Assembly: GCA_947494305.1 (NCBI GenBank)
Contig: CANLUL010000006.1
Location: 30,001-71,173, forward strand
Source of the DNA: an uncultured Sphingomonadaceae bacterium
Lineage (GTDB): Bacteria; Pseudomonadota; Alphaproteobacteria; Sphingomonadales; Sphingomonadaceae
Reading direction: 5' to 3'
DNA length: 41,173 nt
Each line of letters starts with the position of its first letter. Positions within the stretch are counted from its first letter, which is position 1. The translations under genes were made by a program, and so were the position numbers. Below the pieces are notes generated by a model. That model was not told the DNA's origin and made no database searches. It was given only the letters and a program-made list of their open reading frames with translations. This document shows, piece after piece, positions 3,321 to 28,421 of this stretch.

Positions 3321-3397
<77 letters not shown>

Positions 3398-3415
3398 ACT
3401 AAAGATAAGTAATTC

Positions 3416-3448
3416 AAGGGCTTAGAGGAAACTCTAGGCCCTTATTTT
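3416..3448 (+). terminator. Hairpin terminator after tRNA-fMet
   Basis: AAGGGCTTAGAG (3416-3427), loop GAAA, then CTCTAGGCCCTT (3432-3443), followed by ATTTT. The stem has one mismatch. It closes the rrn/tRNA transcription unit just before the integrase. Confidence 0.7.
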
Positions 3449-3523
3449 GTGTGTAAACCGCACTATGATATACTACACACATGTTACACACTTTCACACA
3501 TTTCCAAAAGAAGTGAGCGATCG

Positions 3524-4738
3524 ATGTCGACTCACAAATTTCTAGGGGGAAAAGTAAACGTCTATAAGCGAGGCCGGAGCCGCTACTGGCAATGTTCAGC
3601 CTATGTCGCAGGAAAGAACCGTCGAACATCAACCAAGGAAGAGTCTTTGGCACTTGCCAAAGAGTTTGCCGAGGATTGGTATTTGGACTTACGCGGAAAG
3701 AAGCGTTCCGGTGAACTGGGTAATGAAAGATCTTTTGCTGAAGCCGCAAAGAAGTTCGAAGCGGAATATGAAGCGATCACACAAGGACAGCGCAGTCCGA
3801 AGTGGGTTCAGGGGCATAAAGACCGTATCAGATTGCACCTATTGCCCTTCTTTGGCGTAACTCCGGTATCATCGATTACGTCAGGAATGGCTCAAGAGTA
3901 TCGAGCTCATCGGATGACCAAACCGGAGGATTGGGAAGACGGTGCGAAAGAGTGGAAGCCACCGGCAAAGAAAACAATCCACAACGAAGTTGTCACTCTT
4001 AGTATGGTACTGAAGACTGCCCTTAGGCACGATTGGATAGATCATATCCCCAACCTATCTGATCCTTATCGTCGTAAAAGTAAGATAGAACATCGACCTT
4101 GGTTTACAGAGAAGGAATACAAACAGCTCTACAATGCGACCAGGGCGAACGCTGAAAAGCCTCTGAGACCAGCTCATGCATGGCATGCCGAACAATTGCA
4201 TGACTTCATTCTATTTGCGGTTAACACCGGGATGCGTCCTGACGAACTCAATCAAGTCGAGTTTCGGGACATAGAAATCGTAGATGACGATTATTCTGGA
4301 AATCAAATTCTGGAAATTGAAGTACGCGGAAAACGCGGCGTTGGTTATTGTAAGTCAATGCCGGGAGCGGTTCATACCTTCGAAAGGTCGCGTGATCGAC
4401 CCCGCAAAATATCATCAGAAGAGGGGAAAAGGCAGGGAAAGCCAGAGCCGACTGATCTTCTTTTCCCCAGCGAATTCAAATCAATGTTCAATCGCATATT
4501 AAAGGAGAACAATCTCAAATTTGATAGAAGCGGTAAGGCTAGAACGGCCTATAGCTTACGTCACAGTTACATCTGTTTTCGCCTGCTAGAAGGAGCAGAC
4601 ATATATCAAGTTGCCAAGAACTGCCGCACCAGTGTTGAAATGATCGAGAAACATTATGCGGCTCATTTGAAAGACATGATCGATACGTCCCTCGTCAATG
4701 TCCAACGGCGCAGAAAGCAGCACGACGATATTTATTAA
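3524..4738 (+). CDS. Tyrosine-type site-specific integrase
   Basis: 404-aa phage/island integrase that would recombine an attachment site, probably in the adjacent tRNA-fMet gene. The N-terminal 60 residues look like an Arm-DNA-binding region, followed by a SAM-like core-binding domain (about 65-180) and the catalytic domain. Visible catalytic elements are Arg238 in NTGMRPDEL, the YSLRH box with Arg346-His347 (the first His of the usual HxLRH is Tyr, a variant seen in this family), and the nucleophile Tyr378 in EKHYAAH. The start at 3524 is chosen over the upstream in-frame GTG at 3449 because AAGAAGTGAG lies just before it. The frame is intact and the residues present, so it may be active. 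I found no second copy of the tRNA 3' end in the window, so the island's far end is not located. Confidence 0.93.
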   Translation: MSTHKFLGGKVNVYKRGRSRYWQCSAYVAGKNRRTSTKEESLALAKEFAEDWYLDLRGKKRSGELGNERSFAEAAKKFEAEYEAITQGQRSPKWVQGHKDRIRLHLLPFFGVTPVSSITSGMAQEYRAHRMTKPEDWEDGAKEWKPPAKKTIHNEVVTLSMVLKTALRHDWIDHIPNLSDPYRRKSKIEHRPWFTEKEYKQLYNATRANAEKPLRPAHAWHAEQLHDFILFAVNTGMRPDELNQVEFRDIEIVDDDYSGNQILEIEVRGKRGVGYCKSMPGAVHTFERSRDRPRKISSEEGKRQGKPEPTDLLFPSEFKSMFNRILKENNLKFDRSGKARTAYSLRHSYICFRLLEGADIYQVAKNCRTSVEMIEKHYAAHLKDMIDTSLVNVQRRRKQHDDIY

Positions 4739-21853: not shown

Positions 21854-23263
21854 ATGGCAATTTTAATAACTCTATCGAGCGAGGCTTTTGCCGAGGAAAA
21901 GCATGAGCTCAAAATCAACAGGGATGATCCTAGAACCTCGCTGATAAAGATTCACGGGCGCCAACAGTCAAAACGCATCAGAAAAATCAAACGAGGCTTC
22001 CGGGGTAAACAACATAATTGGCTATTATGGTGGGTTAACTCGCAATCAAATGAACAAGAGTTTGATGAATGGTTGGCTGGCCATTTTGCCCAAAAAGCTC
22101 ATCTGTTACCAGAGTCGTTATACCGCGTAGCGATGGAAAACTTCGTAGCCGAGAGTAATCAGCTTGGAAAAATTACTGGAGACCGCATTTTTCGCTGGGA
22201 TATCGATGAACAGCATTATATTGTTGCTATGCCAGAAGTTGGCTTGATTGCTTTTTTCGCGCCGTCAGGAAATCTTCGCAAGTGCCTCGATCCGCAACAA
22301 AAGGAAACCGAGTGGAACTGGAGTTTGTCGGGAATTCCTTTTGGGGAAAACCCTGATGGAGGAGGAGTGGGCGATGATTTAGTCGCCAAATCCGCCTACA
22401 TAGATGCTTTGCACAAGAAATTTGGAAAGGGAAAAGGCGCTGTATTGGGAATAATAGATACCGGCGTATGTCCTGAATCTAGCGAATTGGAAGGACGTGT
22501 GGTCGCAACTTGGGCAATCCGGACGGATGAGAAAAGAGTGCCTCGACCAGACTACATGATTAATAGTGATGAGATTGGGCACGGCACAGAGACCGCTACA
22601 ATCGCAGCCGGGAAAACACTCGGGATCGCCCCCGAAGCGAGAGTATTCTCAATAAAACTGCCAATGTGGAAAAATGGCGGTACCTATGCATATGATCTCT
22701 TGCATCTGGCAGCAGCCTTTAACACGTTGAGATCTGATGAATCTCAGATAGTCGAGGGACAAAGCGCTCTCTCGTTGATAGATACGTTGCTGCTCCCCAA
22801 CGGCCTCTATTTGTCTGAAAAACACAGGCGCAAGAATGCTGTTAAGAACATCGTCAAAGCCATTTCAGGGTTCAGCAATGATTGCGAGATTGTTGTGGTT
22901 GCTGCGATCGGGAACGAACCAAATCAAGTATCCTTTCCGGCAACAGAGGCAAATGTCTTGTCAGTTGGTGCAATTGACAGTGACGGGAATCGATGGGAGA
23001 AATCCGGATACGGGAACGATATAATCAGTAGCCCCATACCTATTGTTCATTTCCAAGGCTGCGATATTAGTTGCCAAACACTGAACGGTAAGTCAAAACA
23101 AAGTAGCGGAACATCAATGGCAGCGGCAGGAGTGGCGGGCCTAGTGACTATTCTCACCAAAACTGGAAAAACGAGTGTTAGTCGCTGGGGTCGTGTGCGC
23201 GACGGTATCACTGTTCAGCGGGATGCTGTCGGTGATTTACCAATTTTGTATTGGGACAAGTAA
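21854..23263 (+). CDS. Subtilisin-like serine protease (S8 family)
   Basis: 469-aa protease with a full catalytic triad: Asp202 in GIIDTGVCPE, His243 in IGHGTETATIA, and Ser421 in SSGTSMAAAG. The oxyanion Asn lies in AAIGNEPN. About 190 residues precede the catalytic domain; the region is charged and contains LLWWVN and WDIDEQHYIVAMPEVG, with no clear I9 propeptide and no convincing signal peptide, so it may act in the cytoplasm. The start at ATG 21854 lacks a good ribosome site. A small I9-like protein follows on the same strand and a Trypco1-type protein lies convergent beyond it. Trypco1 proteins typically occur beside proteases in conflict systems. Confidence 0.9.
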   Translation: MAILITLSSEAFAEEKHELKINRDDPRTSLIKIHGRQQSKRIRKIKRGFRGKQHNWLLWWVNSQSNEQEFDEWLAGHFAQKAHLLPESLYRVAMENFVAESNQLGKITGDRIFRWDIDEQHYIVAMPEVGLIAFFAPSGNLRKCLDPQQKETEWNWSLSGIPFGENPDGGGVGDDLVAKSAYIDALHKKFGKGKGAVLGIIDTGVCPESSELEGRVVATWAIRTDEKRVPRPDYMINSDEIGHGTETATIAAGKTLGIAPEARVFSIKLPMWKNGGTYAYDLLHLAAAFNTLRSDESQIVEGQSALSLIDTLLLPNGLYLSEKHRRKNAVKNIVKAISGFSNDCEIVVVAAIGNEPNQVSFPATEANVLSVGAIDSDGNRWEKSGYGNDIISSPIPIVHFQGCDISCQTLNGKSKQSSGTSMAAAGVAGLVTILTKTGKTSVSRWGRVRDGITVQRDAVGDLPILYWDK

Positions 23264-23303
23264 GATTTTGTGATTTAATGATATTTTGAATGTGAGGAAA
23301 TAT

Positions 23304-23600
23304 TTGAGATCAACACAAAACACTGCGGGCGGAACCGTTTTAGTCTGTGATCCATCTTTTTTGAGAGACAACGGACAAAATTGTGCGTCGGCCTTTCCGG
23401 TGGAACTTTTGAATAAGTTATCAAGCAGGTTTAATTTCCAAGTACTTGAAACACTTGATACGATGCCAATGGTATTTATCGAGGCTAGCGGTCGCGAGCT
23501 TGGTGCAATGGATGTTTATTTGGCCCAAAACTATGGGAGCAAAGTTTCAGTCGAGGGATCGAACATTATACAAACAGATATTACTTCTTCGCCCACTTAG
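23304..23600 (+). CDS. Small protein, possible I9-like protease inhibitor/chaperone
   Basis: 98 aa from TTG 23304, which has GAGG 6 bp upstream; TTG 23286 or GTG 23292 are alternatives. The C-terminal half (LLNKLSSRFNFQVLETL, then MPMVFIEASGRELGAMDVYL and an end strand KVSVEGSNII) follows the order of I9 propeptide/inhibitor domains: helix, strand with small hydrophobics, helix, strand. It begins about 40 bp after the protease stop. If correct, the inhibitor or folding domain is supplied in trans to a protease that lacks its own. Its last 20 bp overlap the convergent Trypco1-type gene. The fold assignment is my inference. Confidence 0.62.
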   Translation: MRSTQNTAGGTVLVCDPSFLRDNGQNCASAFPVELLNKLSSRFNFQVLETLDTMPMVFIEASGRELGAMDVYLAQNYGSKVSVEGSNIIQTDITSSPT

Positions 23601-23874
23601 CTTTTAAATTTATAGTGGCTTTGCTGTGTACCTTGGCCAGCCCGAAAAAACCTCCCTCGCCGCCAGCTTCAATTCCAAAATCAATCTCGAGCTCATCAGG
23701 ACTGCCGATACTCTTAAACTGTTCCATTGCTTCGTTAGCGAACCTTGTAATACGAGAGAGTGATTCTTTTGCGGGCAATTTTAGTTCATCGTCGTCGGAG
23801 AATGTGCGGCCTGCAGGGATGTCAGAATTATCTATGATTTCAATTTCTGTTTCATCGTCCAATATAAGCTTCAT
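23581..23874 (-). CDS. Trypco1-type (CU044_2847-like) protein
   Basis: 97-aa protein resembling the trypsin-co-occurring domain 1 family. It has an N-terminal strand pair (MKLILDDETEIEIID), a central helix (SLSRITRFANEAMEQFKSI), then the diagnostic run DELEIDFGIEAGGEGG and a closing strand ATINLKAKW, close to the family's EVEFGVKL...TLTW ending. Trypco domains accompany peptidases in predicted NTP-dependent conflict systems (work by Aravind and colleagues). The AGGAG site 7 bp before ATG 23874 is strong. Here the neighbour is a subtilisin-like, not trypsin-like, protease. Function inferred from association only. Confidence 0.78.
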   Translation of the reverse strand: MKLILDDETEIEIIDNSDIPAGRTFSDDDELKLPAKESLSRITRFANEAMEQFKSIGSPDELEIDFGIEAGGEGGFFGLAKVHSKATINLKAKWAKK

Positions 23875-23950: not shown

Positions 23951-24502
23951 CTATCGATCATTTATTGCTCGAGATATTGTACTTGGATGAACCTTATGTG
24001 CATGCGCAATCGAAGCAATTGTATCCCCTGAGGATTTACGCTTCTTGGCATGTTGGACTTGCTTTCGTGACAATTTACGCGGTCGACCACAGTGGATACC
24101 CCGTTTTTTTGCGGCAGCCATTCCAGCTATGGTACGTTCTTTGATGAGATTTAGTTCAAGCTCTGCAAAAGCGGAGCGTATTTGATAGATGCAACGACCA
24201 AAGGGTGTTTTCGTATCAATACCCTCGGTAATATCCATAAACTCAGCGCCTAGCTTCTCGATATGGTCCAACACTGTGAGGGCATGAGACAGGCTACGAA
24301 AAGGCCGATCGAGTTTCCAAATTACAAATTGATCGCCTTTGGTAAGCGCGGCAAGTGCCGCTTCTAATCCAGGACGTTTCTTCTGTGTGGCTGATACTCC
24401 TTGATCGAAATACACCTTATCGACACCGACCATTTCAAATGCGTCGAGTTGCAGATGAAGATTCTGCTCATCTTCCGAGCATCTTGCATAGGCTATTTTC
24501 AT
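23951..24502 (-). CDS. Serine recombinase (resolvase/invertase family)
   Basis: 183-aa recombinase of resolvase/DNA-invertase size. The N-terminal catalytic domain begins MKIAYARCSEDEQN with the nucleophile Ser9. It continues with DQGVSATQKKRPGLEAAL and IWKLDRPFRSLSH (conserved Arg residues), the long E helix from about 100, and a C-terminal HTH, SRKQVQHAKKR to IAHAHKVHPSTISRA. I start it at 24502 because the family consensus begins there; the in-frame extension to 24550 runs into a recombination-site-like dyad. Two inverted 26-bp dyads lie just upstream (24544-24569 and 24701-24726), as expected for an invertase acting next to its own gene. Confidence 0.92.
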   Translation of the reverse strand: MKIAYARCSEDEQNLHLQLDAFEMVGVDKVYFDQGVSATQKKRPGLEAALAALTKGDQFVIWKLDRPFRSLSHALTVLDHIEKLGAEFMDITEGIDTKTPFGRCIYQIRSAFAELELNLIKERTIAGMAAAKKRGIHCGRPRKLSRKQVQHAKKRKSSGDTIASIAHAHKVHPSTISRAINDR

Positions 24503-24543: not shown

Positions 24544-24569
24544 TAAGCAAAAGGGTTCCCTTTTGATTG
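24544..24569 (+). repeat. hix-like recombination site, left
   Basis: Two 12-bp half sites around a central TT: core AAAAGGGTTCCCTTTT at 24549-24564. The half sites agree at 10 of 12 positions. The core plus one base (17 bp) is identical to the reverse complement of the core of the site at 24701-24726. The size and 2-bp centre match sites used by serine invertases such as Hin and Gin. Confidence 0.6.
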
Positions 24570-24700
24570 ACCCCTTTTTCTGCCTAATTCACGCCCTTTA
24601 TTCGGTAGGTCTATCCTACACCGCGTGAGCGTTATCTTACTGCAATCACTCAAAAAACTCAAGAGAAACTACCTGTTGCGTAGTGAAAGCCTTTTACCGG
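24570..24700. promoter_or_regulatory. Candidate invertible segment between the two dyads
   Basis: About 130 bp of AT-rich DNA between the two inverted sites, upstream of both the recombinase (leftward) and the exported-protein gene (rightward). It contains promoter-like hexamers, for example TTGACC at 24566 rightward and TTGAGT read leftward near 24650, and a small hairpin GTAGG-N5-CCTAC near 24605. No coding sequence is evident. Inversion would redirect any promoter inside it. Confidence 0.4.
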
Positions 24701-24726
24701 CTTGCAAAAGGGAACCCTTTTACAAG
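24701..24726 (-). repeat. hix-like recombination site, right (inverted)
   Basis: Core AAAAGGGAACCCTTTT at 24706-24721 around a central AA; half sites agree at 11 of 12 positions, and the symmetry extends to 14 bp per side. Its reverse complement has TT at the centre, so relative to 24544-24569 the sites are inverted. Recombination between them would invert about 157 bp (centre to centre). Confidence 0.6.
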
Positions 24727-25258: not shown

Positions 25259-26148
25259 GATAGGGCAAGCGCATTTATGCTTGGTGCAGGTAGCGCCCTA
25301 GTAGCATCTGCTAGCTGGACGCCAACGGCTTGAGCATTAAATTCTACGCTCGGGCTATAGTCCGACTCAAATGGATTTCCTGAACTTGATACGCCCTCTC
25401 GAATTTGAACAGTCTCTCTTGCATTTGTCTCAGCAGCATTGGCACTATATCCCTCTGAAAGCGCAGCCTGCTCTTGGACAGTCTGATAATCGACAGGAGC
25501 CTCAATTTGTTCAGCCTGCAAATTTTGCGTTTCGTCGTTAGTAAGATCATTCTGATTGCGAGCTTCACGCTTTGAATTGGCATCGTCTGCCATTTCACGC
25601 GCGATTTCAGGTTGCTTGTCTGCGATCTCGGATAGAATTTCGGCCTTTTCTTCCGGCGTGTCTGCGTTTTGATACGCAATGAGCATTGTTGCCAGTTCGG
25701 CTTTTTGCTGTGCGTCGATGCCGTGACGAGCTGCAATGTCATCGATGTTTTCCAATGTGTCATTAACCGCAGCATCCGTATCCTCTTCGTCAATATCCAT
25801 ACCAAACATATGAAATTGACCATTTGAGTAAAAGACAGCTTGCATGGCTTCGCGTTGTCGTTCTGCAAGCTCGGTAATCATGCTAGCATCGCTAGCCGGA
25901 TCATCTTTCTTGCGTTGCTCTTCTTCCAATTTGAGAACATTATTTATTGCAATATCGGCAACAGCTTCCCCAACCCCTGAAACGGAACCACCATCAACAT
26001 TACCATATGCGGCATCCCACATGGTCGCACCAAAGTTGAAATCTTGAAAATATACAGAAGGTGAGGGAAGCTTTGTGGGGCTTGCAGCTAAATGTGCTGC
26101 AATTCCTGCATCCCGTAGATTGATTGCTGTGACCTGGCTAATTGCCAT
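25255..26148 (-). CDS. Acidic hypothetical protein
   Basis: 297 aa, strongly acidic, with no signal peptide or membrane helix and no recognised domain. The N-terminal region (about 1-70) is rich in Ala and Gly (SVSGVGEAVADIAINNVL), the middle is helical and charged (TPEEKAEILSEIADKQPEIAREMADD), and the C-terminal 80 residues are low complexity and probably disordered. AAGG precedes ATG 26148. Composition suggests a structural, scaffold or mobile-element protein, but nothing in the sequence decides it. It overlaps the next gene's 3' end by 61 bp. Confidence 0.65.
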   Translation of the reverse strand: MAISQVTAINLRDAGIAAHLAASPTKLPSPSVYFQDFNFGATMWDAAYGNVDGGSVSGVGEAVADIAINNVLKLEEEQRKKDDPASDASMITELAERQREAMQAVFYSNGQFHMFGMDIDEEDTDAAVNDTLENIDDIAARHGIDAQQKAELATMLIAYQNADTPEEKAEILSEIADKQPEIAREMADDANSKREARNQNDLTNDETQNLQAEQIEAPVDYQTVQEQAALSEGYSANAAETNARETVQIREGVSSSGNPFESDYSPSVEFNAQAVGVQLADATRALPAPSINALALS

Positions 26149-26732
26149 TTTCCCATCCTTATTTTTTTGTTCTCGCGGATGAGTTGATTATGCGTTATGA
26201 AAATTAACCAGCTGTAAATTATACATAAAATTTGAACTAATTTGGGTGACGCAATCTGTTTTCGAGTGGAGATAGCTGCGTAGAGCTTCATCACAAACTC
26301 CCAATGTTCAGTTTTTGCTGACTTTGAGCTGCGATCAATCCAGCTTTGCACCTTTTGGTGATTTAGGCCCTCTGGTAGATTGCTTAGAGCATGGCGCAAT
26401 ATTCGAACTGCTCCCAGCCTAGTTCTCTCACATTCGTTCATCAAAACCTGATGTTGTTCATCACCGATCTTAATTCTCGATGTAGTTCCTTGTTGCCTTG
26501 ATGTCCCAAAATCCCTGTATGCGTTAAATACCCATTCTATATGAGCTTGTTCAGCAGTTTTGGATTTACCATTTAGCCAGTTATGGACGATGGATGATGA
26601 TGTAAGTCCTTTGGGACGAGTTGCATTTGTTCCACGAAACAGCTTTTGAACGCCCACGCCGGTGCGAACCTTTTCAGATTGTAAGTGATCTATTATATTG
26701 GCGGTGATGGGAACGCGATTTGTTTTGACCAT
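26088..26732 (-). CDS. Protein with duplicated HTH-like module
   Basis: 214 aa made of two homologous modules of about 60 residues (15-74 and 95-153). They share the pattern LG/VGVxKLFR, then P-K/E-GL, then a helix with VxxWL/I, S-K-S/T-A, and EHWEFVxxxY. The GLxxxxVxxWLNG part looks like an XRE-type HTH. No third copy is present. The last 50 residues are hydrophobic and basic and run through the ribosome site and start of the next gene, so the natural stop may have been lost by a frameshift near 26250. The gene is divergent from the AbiE pair, with a perfect 47-bp palindrome in between. A DNA-binding regulator is likely. Confidence 0.68.
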   Translation of the reverse strand: MVKTNRVPITANIIDHLQSEKVRTGVGVQKLFRGTNATRPKGLTSSSIVHNWLNGKSKTAEQAHIEWVFNAYRDFGTSRQQGTTSRIKIGDEQHQVLMNECERTRLGAVRILRHALSNLPEGLNHQKVQSWIDRSSKSAKTEHWEFVMKLYAAISTRKQIASPKLVQILCIIYSWLIFITHNQLIRENKKIRMGKWQLARSQQSIYGMQELQHI

Positions 26733-26896: not shown

Positions 26897-27802
26897 ATGG
26901 AATCCACACGCTTAAAATCGCAGAAATTGCCAAAATTTGCGCAAGCGGTCGCTGCTGAATTGGATATGCAGCCAAAGCCTATATTAACACATGCCGCTCT
27001 GTTTGAAATCATGTGGCTATGTTTTGAAAACGGTGGAAGCCAATTTCTTCGCAGTCCCTATTTCAACAAAAGCAGTTACCGGCGCGCGCGTACCCAGTTG
27101 CGGCGCGCTGGGTATATCAGGCAGGATTCAGATTATTCCGCTTGCTGGCGTGTTATGACCAAGGGCGATGTGCCGGCGGAGGACATTATCTGTTCAATCG
27201 ATCCGCATTGTTATGTGTCGCATATGTCAGCAATGCAAAGATATGGACTGACAAATCGCAGACCGAAAGACCTGCATATGACGCGCCCAACGGACATCAT
27301 GAGGCGCGCATGGTTGAAGGAACATATGCACGAATTTTACGGACCATATTTTTCAGAACATGGTGAGGAAATTGAAAGGGCGCGTGCAGTTATTCATCGC
27401 AGCCGTGTTCGTGGGCGAGCTGTCCATTTCACAGTGACTAAGCATTATGCCGACCATCTTGATATCAAAGGATCACTATCTCGCATAGCAACTGTCGGGC
27501 AGACCTTCCTAGACATGCTCGATGAACCAGATGCCTGCGGCGGCATGGCGCATGTTCTGGATGTTTGGGCAGAGCATGCCAGAACCTATCTTGATGAAAT
27601 TATCTCTCATGTGGATAGAGCAGAACGTCCTATTCTCAAAGTTCGTGCTGGCTATATACTCGATGAAGGCATGGGTATTGAAAATGAAAGAATCGAAGGC
27701 TGGACGCGCTTTGCCCAGCGTGGGTCAAGCCGTGTTCTAGTGGCTGGCAAGCCTTTTGTATCTGACCATTCAGAGAAGTGGATGCTTTCAATCAATGCCT
27801 GA
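26897..27802 (+). CDS. AbiEi-like antitoxin (type IV toxin-antitoxin)
   Basis: 301-aa antitoxin of the AbiEi family. The N-terminal winged-helix-like part (about 30-95) has LTHAALFEIMWLCFENGG and YRRARTQLRRAGYI. The family hallmark follows: SIDPHCYVSHMSAMQRYGLT near residue 105, with the usual HMTRPTD strand. The C-terminal domain carries VGQTFLDMLDEPDACGG. AAGG lies 8 bp before ATG 26897. It overlaps the toxin gene by 8 bp, the usual translational coupling. AbiEi proteins neutralise the nucleotidyltransferase toxin and repress their own operon. Confidence 0.88.
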   Translation: MESTRLKSQKLPKFAQAVAAELDMQPKPILTHAALFEIMWLCFENGGSQFLRSPYFNKSSYRRARTQLRRAGYIRQDSDYSACWRVMTKGDVPAEDIICSIDPHCYVSHMSAMQRYGLTNRRPKDLHMTRPTDIMRRAWLKEHMHEFYGPYFSEHGEEIERARAVIHRSRVRGRAVHFTVTKHYADHLDIKGSLSRIATVGQTFLDMLDEPDACGGMAHVLDVWAEHARTYLDEIISHVDRAERPILKVRAGYILDEGMGIENERIEGWTRFAQRGSSRVLVAGKPFVSDHSEKWMLSINA

Positions 27803-28421
27803 TGAATCTCTTGTTCCCGAAAAAATATCCGTCGAAATCGCCGAGTGGATAGACAAAGCCAAGGCTGACCCCAAGGCCTATTTGGAGCGTCAGGCAACAG
27901 AGGTGTTTCTTACCGCATTAGGTATGACCAAGCCCTATGCGCATGAGTTCTACCTCAAAGGCGGCGTGTTGATGGGCGTCGTCTACGACAGTCCGCGTCA
28001 AACAGGCGACATTGATTTTACTGCCATGAGTGATCCCAACCCCGGGATCGCTGATGAGATTAAGGAAATGATCAATGCGAACCTACCTCGAGCTTCTGCC
28101 GAACTTGGTTATCCTGATCTTATGTGCGCGATACAATCATCGCGCTATTACCCTTCAACAAAGATGTTTCCCAAAGCCAGCGGACCTGCGCTCAAAATTC
28201 ATGCCGGATATGCGAAACGTGATTCACCACAGCAGAAAGGATTCGAAAGGGGTAAAGCTAGCGACATTCTCGAAATCGACATTAGCTTTCGGGAACCCGT
28301 CAACGCCATCCAATTGGTGAGCCTTGGTGACAAAAGCGGTGAGATCCACGCCTATTCGCTTGGTGACTTAATTGCTGAGAAGTTGCGGGCACTTCAGCTT
28401 CTTCAAGTCACGCATCATTAG
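27795..28421 (+). CDS. AbiEii-like nucleotidyltransferase toxin, C-terminally truncated
   Basis: 208 aa of an AbiEii/AbiGii toxin, a DNA-polymerase-beta-like nucleotidyltransferase that blocks growth, in some members by adding nucleotides to tRNA 3' ends. Present are the LKGGVLM motif (residues 54-60), the metal-binding pair Asp72/Asp74 in QTGDIDF, the third acidic motif ILEIDISF near 155, and YSLGDLIAEKLRALQ near 190. The protein ends just after that last motif, whereas typical members run to about 270-300 aa, so the C-terminal helical part is missing. The break near 28395 is where the sequence becomes part of the opposite-strand gene. Activity is doubtful. Confidence 0.82.
   Translation: MPDESLVPEKISVEIAEWIDKAKADPKAYLERQATEVFLTALGMTKPYAHEFYLKGGVLMGVVYDSPRQTGDIDFTAMSDPNPGIADEIKEMINANLPRASAELGYPDLMCAIQSSRYYPSTKMFPKASGPALKIHAGYAKRDSPQQKGFERGKASDILEIDISFREPVNAIQLVSLGDKSGEIHAYSLGDLIAEKLRALQLLQVTHH

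Follow-up and report, generated by a model that had tools for sequence, protein, structure and literature searches.

A small serine recombinase gene and a divergent gene for a putative exported protein are separated, in the genome of an uncultured Sphingomonadaceae bacterium, by a short intergenic region with two similar palindromic sequences. This arrangement raises the question of whether the region is an invertible DNA switch and, if so, which of the two genes it would control. Here, we analysed the surrounding stretch of 41,173 nucleotides (hereafter the window; its features are collected in Table 1), the whole 3.35-Mb genome, and related loci in other genomes and plasmids. From the comparison of these sequences, we consider it highly likely that positions 24544-24726 form a site-specific inversion switch, in which the recombinase would flip a 155-bp promoter segment so that it serves either the recombinase gene or the exported protein gene.

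Table 1. Features of the switch locus and its neighbours (positions in the window)
Feature	Position	Strand	Remarks
Small serine recombinase, 183 aa	23951-24502	-	ATG at 24502; the open frame continues to a TTG at 24550
Recombinase-side dyad (site 1)	24544-24569		Core TT at 24556-24557; equivalent sites beside relatives
Predicted invertible segment	24558-24712		155 bp between cores; homologous segment inverted between relatives
Promoter-like element	24634-24662	-	TTGAGT (24657-24662), 17-bp spacer, TAAGAT (24634-24639); points at the recombinase; conserved
Distal dyad (site 2)	24701-24726		Core AA at 24713-24714; direct reading and measurement
Exported protein, 168 aa	24752-25258	+	Signal-peptide-like start (by eye); predicted output of the switch after inversion
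Convergent neighbour, 297 aa	25255-26148	-	Homologue at this place in 8/8 modules inspected

Two inverted dyads between the recombinase and exported protein genes

The original prediction described two 26-bp dyads with TT and AA centres that share an identical 17-bp core in inverted orientation, and direct reading and measurement of the sequence bear this out. Site 1 reads TAAGCAAAAGGG TT CCCTTTTGATTG, its arms being complementary in 10/12 pairs with the first 8 unbroken, and site 2 reads CTTGCAAAAGGG AA CCCTTTTACAAG, with 11/12 complementary pairs and the first 7 unbroken. The two sites are inverted relative to each other and lie 157 bp apart from core to core, in the interval between the two divergent genes. 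When site 1 is compared with the reverse complement of site 2, 19/26 bases are the same, including the 17-bp identical core.

Single dyads of this kind are present elsewhere in the window, where seven have a non-palindromic 2-bp centre and arms of at least 7, sites 1 and 2 being two of these. The motif AAAAGGGWWCCCTTTT, allowing up to 3 mismatches, has three matches in the window versus 0.58 expected, and the two perfect ones are sites 1 and 2. Across the whole genome, CAAAAGGGWWCCCTTTT with up to 2 mismatches is found at sites 1 and 2 and at two other places (2 mismatches each), and no dyad site was found elsewhere in the 3.35 Mb at 0-1 mismatches. Markov simulations of the 249-bp intergenic region contained at least one dyad with arms of at least 7 in 556 of 20,000 cases and a qualifying inverted pair in 0/20,000.

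The recombinase

The dyads were predicted to lie between a leftward recombinase and a rightward exported protein, and both assignments hold, the former through a match to the Pfam Resolvase domain (PF00239, 1.5e-37) and the latter through a signal-peptide-like start recognized by eye. The recombinase also matches the DNA invertase family of PHROGs (4.1e-53), with a PF02796 match of 22.8 bits that is slightly below the cut-off of 23.8, and belongs to the small serine recombinases (resolvase/invertase group), enzymes of about 180-200 aa in which an N-terminal resolvase domain with its catalytic serine and arginines is followed by a C-terminal helix-turn-helix. Residues Ser9, Arg7, Arg43, Asp65, Arg66 and Arg69, which we take to be the catalytic positions, are invariant among its 11 relatives that carry a site pair. 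Among solved structures, the nearest is the DNA invertase 4m6f, presumably Gin of phage Mu, with 123.5 bits versus 65.7 bits for Tn3 resolvase. The genome has five Resolvase-domain matches, of which one, on contig C7, is 55% identical to the window recombinase. For Fis, the protein that binds the recombinational enhancer of Hin/Gin-type systems, a search of the genome at the curated cut-off of 99 gave no protein above it, the best match to the Fis model (69.7 bits) being a 491-aa frame.

A viral origin of the module was considered and set aside: neither the recombinase nor the exported protein had a confirmed relative among viral contigs, and the exact 18-bp palindrome matched nothing there. 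As to plasmid relatives of the window, megablast gave no match over 25 kb, and a search with the exported protein likewise gave none. As a separate observation, several loci (for example L018, L024, L025, L029 and L117) share a short AACCTGCGC-like motif some 10-35 bp ahead of the recombinase start codon, and this motif is not a classical ribosome-binding site.

Site pairs beside related recombinases

We scored 48 recombinase loci (7 from named genome contigs, 31 from this genome and others of the family, and 10 from plasmids) for two dyads that lie up to 420 bp upstream, 90-260 bp apart, and are alike in inverted orientation. By score, 16/48 loci carry a pair (20.5 to 28.0, the cut-off of 20.5 having been chosen after the list was seen), each with 0/30 shuffles as good. 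One more locus, L027 (AC/GT), whose second dyad is below the dyad cut-off, was added by eye, bringing the count to 17/48. Three others (L015, with a score of 20.0, L034 and L031) also had 0/30 shuffles as good, yet they were left out of the count, as were the pairs at L034 and L119 that look degenerate by eye. The 16 scored pairs have spacings of 116 to 169 bp, and their cores are complementary in 16/16 (AA/TT, AC/GT or TC/GA). L052, which was scored later, has no pair. The loci left unscored were partial matches (L016, L017), longer recombinases (L019, L020), copies of loci already used (L021, L086, L116), a partial gene (L120) and a locus whose upstream region was too short (L102).

Since core agreement was part of this first score, scoring was repeated without the core columns. 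In the core-blind version, which covered 80 loci, matching cores were found in 20 of the 21 best loci (scores of at least 20.0), the exception being L111, and the next six loci, down to 18.5, were without matching cores save L085 (18.5).

In a maximum-likelihood tree of 50 rows, the clade of the window recombinase has ten members (support 99/98) and the inverted pair is present in 10/10, L027 by eye; dyads are therefore not absent beside homologous recombinases, the finding that the original prediction had named as counting against it. Over the tree, the pair label changes 4 times, versus 14.3 with shuffled labels. A search of the whole class found recombinases of this kind in 32/385 genomes, with loci fetched from 30, and among 32 further loci (28 from the class and 4 from one genus) the pair is present in 5, two of which (L092 and L093) have a palindromic AT core that cannot alone separate inverted from direct orientation. 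We make no claim from the helical phasing of the site spacing (R 0.51, p ~0.08 at 10.5 bp/turn, from ten non-independent values).

Several of these loci have features of their own. L010, L011 and L118 have one good dyad and no partner. In L118, the dyad (CTCAAAAACGACCGTTTTTGAG) has 10/10 complementary pairs and is located about 83 bp ahead of the recombinase. No second dyad was found upstream of it, and it may represent an operator or resolvase form, or a switch that has been lost. On the Ochrobactrum sp. plasmid CP061774 (L085:1-3561), an inverted site pair separates the recombinase from a divergent gene with an EAL domain, behind which lies a gene for an autotransporter. This suggests a switch acting on signalling or adhesion. 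Finally, the Roseobacter segments of L076, L077, L078 and L014 contain TTTTCCACAG, which resembles a DnaA box and is a possible host-factor site.

The segment is inverted between relatives

The central idea of the original prediction, a candidate invertible switch, is supported by relatives that carry the segment in both orientations, with breakpoints at the cores. Two genomes of different genera in the same family, G202 and G188, have a common island whose flanks are collinear (93.6% identity over 5,104 bp and 96.2% over 3,308 bp). The 153 bp between their cores match as reverse complements in 153/153 positions and directly in 54/153, and the breakpoints of this inversion are the cores of both dyads. 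A second, separate case was found on plasmids, where the segment of Roseivivax marinus (L077) is inverted with respect to those of Phaeobacter piscinae (L076) and Sulfitobacter pontiacus (L078): the reverse complement matches in 102/121 and 99/121 aligned columns, respectively, versus 80/135 and 78/137 for the direct comparison. The 90 bp next to the segment on the recombinase side, in contrast, align in the direct orientation (81/91 and 80/91).

Pairwise alignment of the sphingomonad segments distributes ten modules over two opposite orientations, 7 vs 3. Those of the window, the C7 copy, G188, G139, G152, G175 and G004 face the recombinase, and those of G202, G233 and G1005 face the exported gene. 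The region has one of the two hallmarks of an inverton, an intergenic segment between inverted repeats that is found in both orientations (here, across related genomes and plasmids); for the other, an active promoter whose orientation controls a neighbouring gene, the candidate is the conserved promoter-like block described below. The region shares with Hin and Gin systems both the two inverted dyad crossover sites with matching 2-bp cores and the inversion of the DNA between them, seen between relatives. A hunt for more flips covered the genus of G202 (1/3 genomes, namely G202 itself) and that of G233 (4/45, L117 adding a module), and an order-wide search with the exported protein of G188 returned 5/396 genomes, all known already.

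Promoter-like elements in and around the segment

The segment had been described as about 130 bp long, enough for a promoter. By our measurement, 155 bp lie between the cores, and the segment has a promoter-like block that is conserved among relatives. Nine segments were aligned in a common orientation (eight distinct ones, G202 and G188 being identical once turned), and the block TTGnnn-N17-TAnnnT is present in 9/9, followed soon after by GCGCAGTGC in 5/9. The spacing of this block is that of the housekeeping promoter. The match in the window is not significant when taken alone, with 37/300 shuffles as good, so the argument for a promoter-like block is its conservation. In L026, the conserved block scores only 7/12 and is absent from the listed promoter-like matches.

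The opposite orientation brings out another element. The cargo-facing state, which was made computationally for 7/9 modules, places a TTGACC of the segment 17 bp from a TATTGT of the fixed flank in 6/9 modules. With one half in the segment and the other in the flank, the crossover site falls in the spacer, and this split promoter-like sequence would exist solely in the cargo-facing state. The C7 copy has a weaker form of it, and the window and G004 have none. Moreover, promoter-like matches with scores of 8 to 8.5 lie on the opposite strand in L018, L024, L025 and L030, and in the window the exported gene is immediately preceded by a fixed TTTACA-17-CATAAA, independent of orientation. Because of these matches, expression may not be a clean either/or.

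The exported protein gene and its neighbours

The exported protein has no family match in Pfam, NCBIfam, PHROGs or PADLOC. It has 74 database matches including itself, and the few names listed are 'hypothetical' or 'uncharacterized', from Sphingopyxis, Altererythrobacter, Erythrobacter and an unclassified pseudomonadote. Its gene is present in 7/397 genomes of the family, and in all seven it is divergent from and adjoining the recombinase. The nine genus-mates listed are without it, which indicates that the module is accessory. Across the wider set, a divergent gene with an N-terminal hydrophobic stretch was found at 11/22 pair loci vs 12/59 others with the scripted threshold, and at 18/22 vs 17/59 with a softer threshold of 1.65 that was read off afterwards. 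The automatic choice of the divergent gene was crude (by eye, it was mistaken at L009 and L093), and a bias of the divergent genes at pair loci to exported proteins is only suggestive.

On the far side of the exported gene lies the convergent 297-aa gene, which overlaps or abuts it within a few bases. The protein has 34 database matches including itself, and in the comparison of modules the copy of G152 is cut off by a contig end. Apparently this gene is part of the module and is not driven by the switch. Its family aligns as a mosaic, with several interchangeable versions of the N-terminal, the central and the C-terminal part. Judging from the alignment of G202 and G188, the cargo diverges faster than its surroundings: identity falls to 81.5% over a 400-bp stretch that includes the distal dyad and the greater part of the exported gene, compared with 94-96% in the flanks, and the following 700 bp or so do not align. 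Upstream of the 297-aa gene, positions 26250-26732 encode a protein made of two halves that resemble each other (RTGxGxxxLxRG ... W motifs), and relatives are present at the same place in four of the other modules read. The longer open frame (26088-26732) has no match in Pfam and a weak PHROGs match of unknown function.

A proposed model for the switch

The locus is probably a compact invertible-promoter switch that toggles between its own recombinase and the exported protein. In the model that we propose, the recombinase would bind both 26-bp dyads, cut at their 2-bp cores (TT/AA) and invert the segment between them. In the state found in the window, the segment promoter faces leftward and is expected to drive the recombinase; inversion would turn it rightward, so that it would drive the exported protein instead. 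Along these lines, we infer that the recombinase itself does the flipping, that TTGnnn-N17-TAnnnT is active, that the exported gene is phase variable and that this copy still flips. Should the flipping promoter be the one on which the recombinase relies, the cargo-on state would act as a latch. The 7-to-3 excess of recombinase-facing copies is not expected of a fast self-driven flip out of that state, and we could speculate that modules leave it slowly, that selection acts against leaving it, or that the promoter of the recombinase is repressed by the enzyme itself.

It is also tempting to extend this model to a widespread class of self-wired switches in Alphaproteobacteria and plasmids, a generalization about which we are slightly more doubtful than convinced. 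Members of this class would have a segment of 116-169 bp with one promoter serving either the recombinase or a divergent cargo, often exported or membrane-bound, so that the flip that turns on the cargo would silence the recombinase, an inherent latch. For the majority of sphingomonad copies, the distal crossover site would in addition fall within the spacer of a second, split promoter, complete only while the cargo is on, and the core dinucleotide proper to each copy would keep two switches in one genome (TT/AA in the window, GT/AC in C7) from crossing.

Alternative explanations

Dyads near genes for DNA-binding proteins are often operators, and with the promoter as found, the recombinase-side dyad would fall in a 5' leader. 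One could thus see the two dyads as operators, or as a chance palindrome pair, and attribute the inversions to ordinary homologous recombination or rearrangement. This explanation is very improbable indeed, since the inversion is perfect (153/153) and breaks at the cores, it recurs in two separate groups, the 2-bp centres match those of their partners, and the simulations yielded no pair. Another alternative is a resolvase system, which has one crossover site with accessory sites and acts on directly repeated copies. Crossover would then take place at only one of the dyads, the other serving as accessory or operator site, and the enzyme would resolve plasmid or cointegrate dimers, with inversion as a rare side reaction. 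Plasmids with related enzymes are numerous (at least 5,000 records), and in three cases from Roseobacter the enzyme has mobilization genes, or genes at the same place, close by; the partnerless dyads of L010, L011 and L118 are what a resolvase or operator might have; and inversion by a resolvase between two transposon copies is recorded for Paracoccus (PMC3925955). Nevertheless, the inverted relatives break at both dyads, the cores of the two agree in inverted orientation also under core-blind scoring, which an accessory site would not need, and the enzyme is nearer to the DNA invertase than to Tn3 resolvase in bits. We therefore regard a resolvase system as quite unlikely.

A different kind of alternative accepts that the inversion switch is real and proposes that it regulates the recombinase, or antisense transcription into the 297-aa gene, and not the exported protein. 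The predominance of recombinase-facing modules (7/10), the orientation-independent TTTACA-17-CATAAA before the exported gene of the window and the conservation of the convergent 297-aa gene in the modules inspected would all agree with it. Against it, 6/9 modules assemble TTGACC-17-TATTGT towards the exported gene when cargo-facing, and the exported gene is linked to the recombinase in every family genome that has it (7/7), which makes this version unlikely.

Relation to known inversion systems

The locus resembles Hin/hix of Salmonella and Gin/gix of phage Mu in its inversion and in its small serine recombinase, which among solved structures matches a DNA invertase best. The hix and gix sites are 26-bp dyads with a 2-bp centre in inverted orientation, as are those of the window. 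Unlike in these systems, the 155-bp segment has no gene, the recombinase lies outside it, and the promoter appears to face either the recombinase or the cargo. In our tree, Gin falls with 19 rows that have no pair, apart from the ten-row clade of the window, although it sits on a long branch and its place is thus unsure. Of the Hin/Gin-type layout in the original prediction, the inverted dyads, the matching cores and the inversion among relatives stand; the position of the recombinase outside the segment and the apparently separate clade of Gin do not fit it, and no Fis above the cut-off was found in the genome. For these reasons, and because the segment is too short for a gene, we do not class the system as Hin/Gin-type.

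A small promoter segment controlling a surface product is also known from fimS, the type 1 fimbrial switch of E. coli, which uses the tyrosine recombinases FimB and FimE. The fimS segment is 296 bp long (PMC5903667). The same paper describes the Mpi invertible promoters of Bacteroides fragilis, which, as here, combine a serine recombinase with small intergenic promoter segments, and presents Mpi as a master enzyme for at least 13 regions (PMC5903667). Unlike the sites of Mpi, those of the window recur nowhere else in the genome at 0-1 mismatches, and the window recombinase reaches 32.6 bits with the Mpi model NF009949, versus a cut-off of 272; it is not a master invertase of the Mpi kind. Gut invertons are likewise short intergenic promoter inversions near cell-surface genes with an invertase nearby; according to PMC11892184, these invertases are generally not placed to be driven by the inverton promoter, with one potential exception of the tyrosine type. 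In contrast, the 5' end of the recombinase gene in the window lies directly next to the segment.

Most known cases of promoter inversion come from gut bacteria and pathogens, and our searches of the open-access literature listed no report of a switch of this kind for sphingomonads or other Alphaproteobacteria. Inversion signatures are given for 0/4 Alphaproteobacteria samples in PMC5903667, and the nearest case found was the inversion in Paracoccus mentioned above, which spans 15 kb between the two transposon copies (PMC3925955). A switch of about 180 bp with a single 183-aa enzyme, whose promoter is apparently wired to that enzyme, raises the question of whether orientation-coupled expression of the recombinase makes a one-shot latch. 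The exported proteins, in turn, would be a fast-diverging family of uncharacterized members that environmental bacteria find worth switching.

Second module and other features of the genome

The same genome carries a second complete module on contig C7 (L067:6123-8163), where the recombinase with 55% identity is accompanied by inverted dyads whose cores are GT/AC, by an exported protein other than that of the window and by a gene related to the 297-aa one. As its cores differ from the TT/AA of the window, the two switches should stay apart. Elsewhere in the window, a tRNA-Met lies beside a weak phage-integrase match (3321-4738), as at the edge of a genomic island, and no second copy of the tRNA-Met end was found in the window. 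Beyond the module, positions 26897-28421 encode an AbiEi/AbiEii toxin-antitoxin (abortive infection) pair according to PADLOC models; Pfam gives no support for the first gene and supports AbiEii for the second. On the other side, next to the recombinase, a subtilase-family peptidase is convergent with a trypsin-co-occurring domain 1 protein (21854-23874), and the peptidase has a weak subtilase match in PADLOC.
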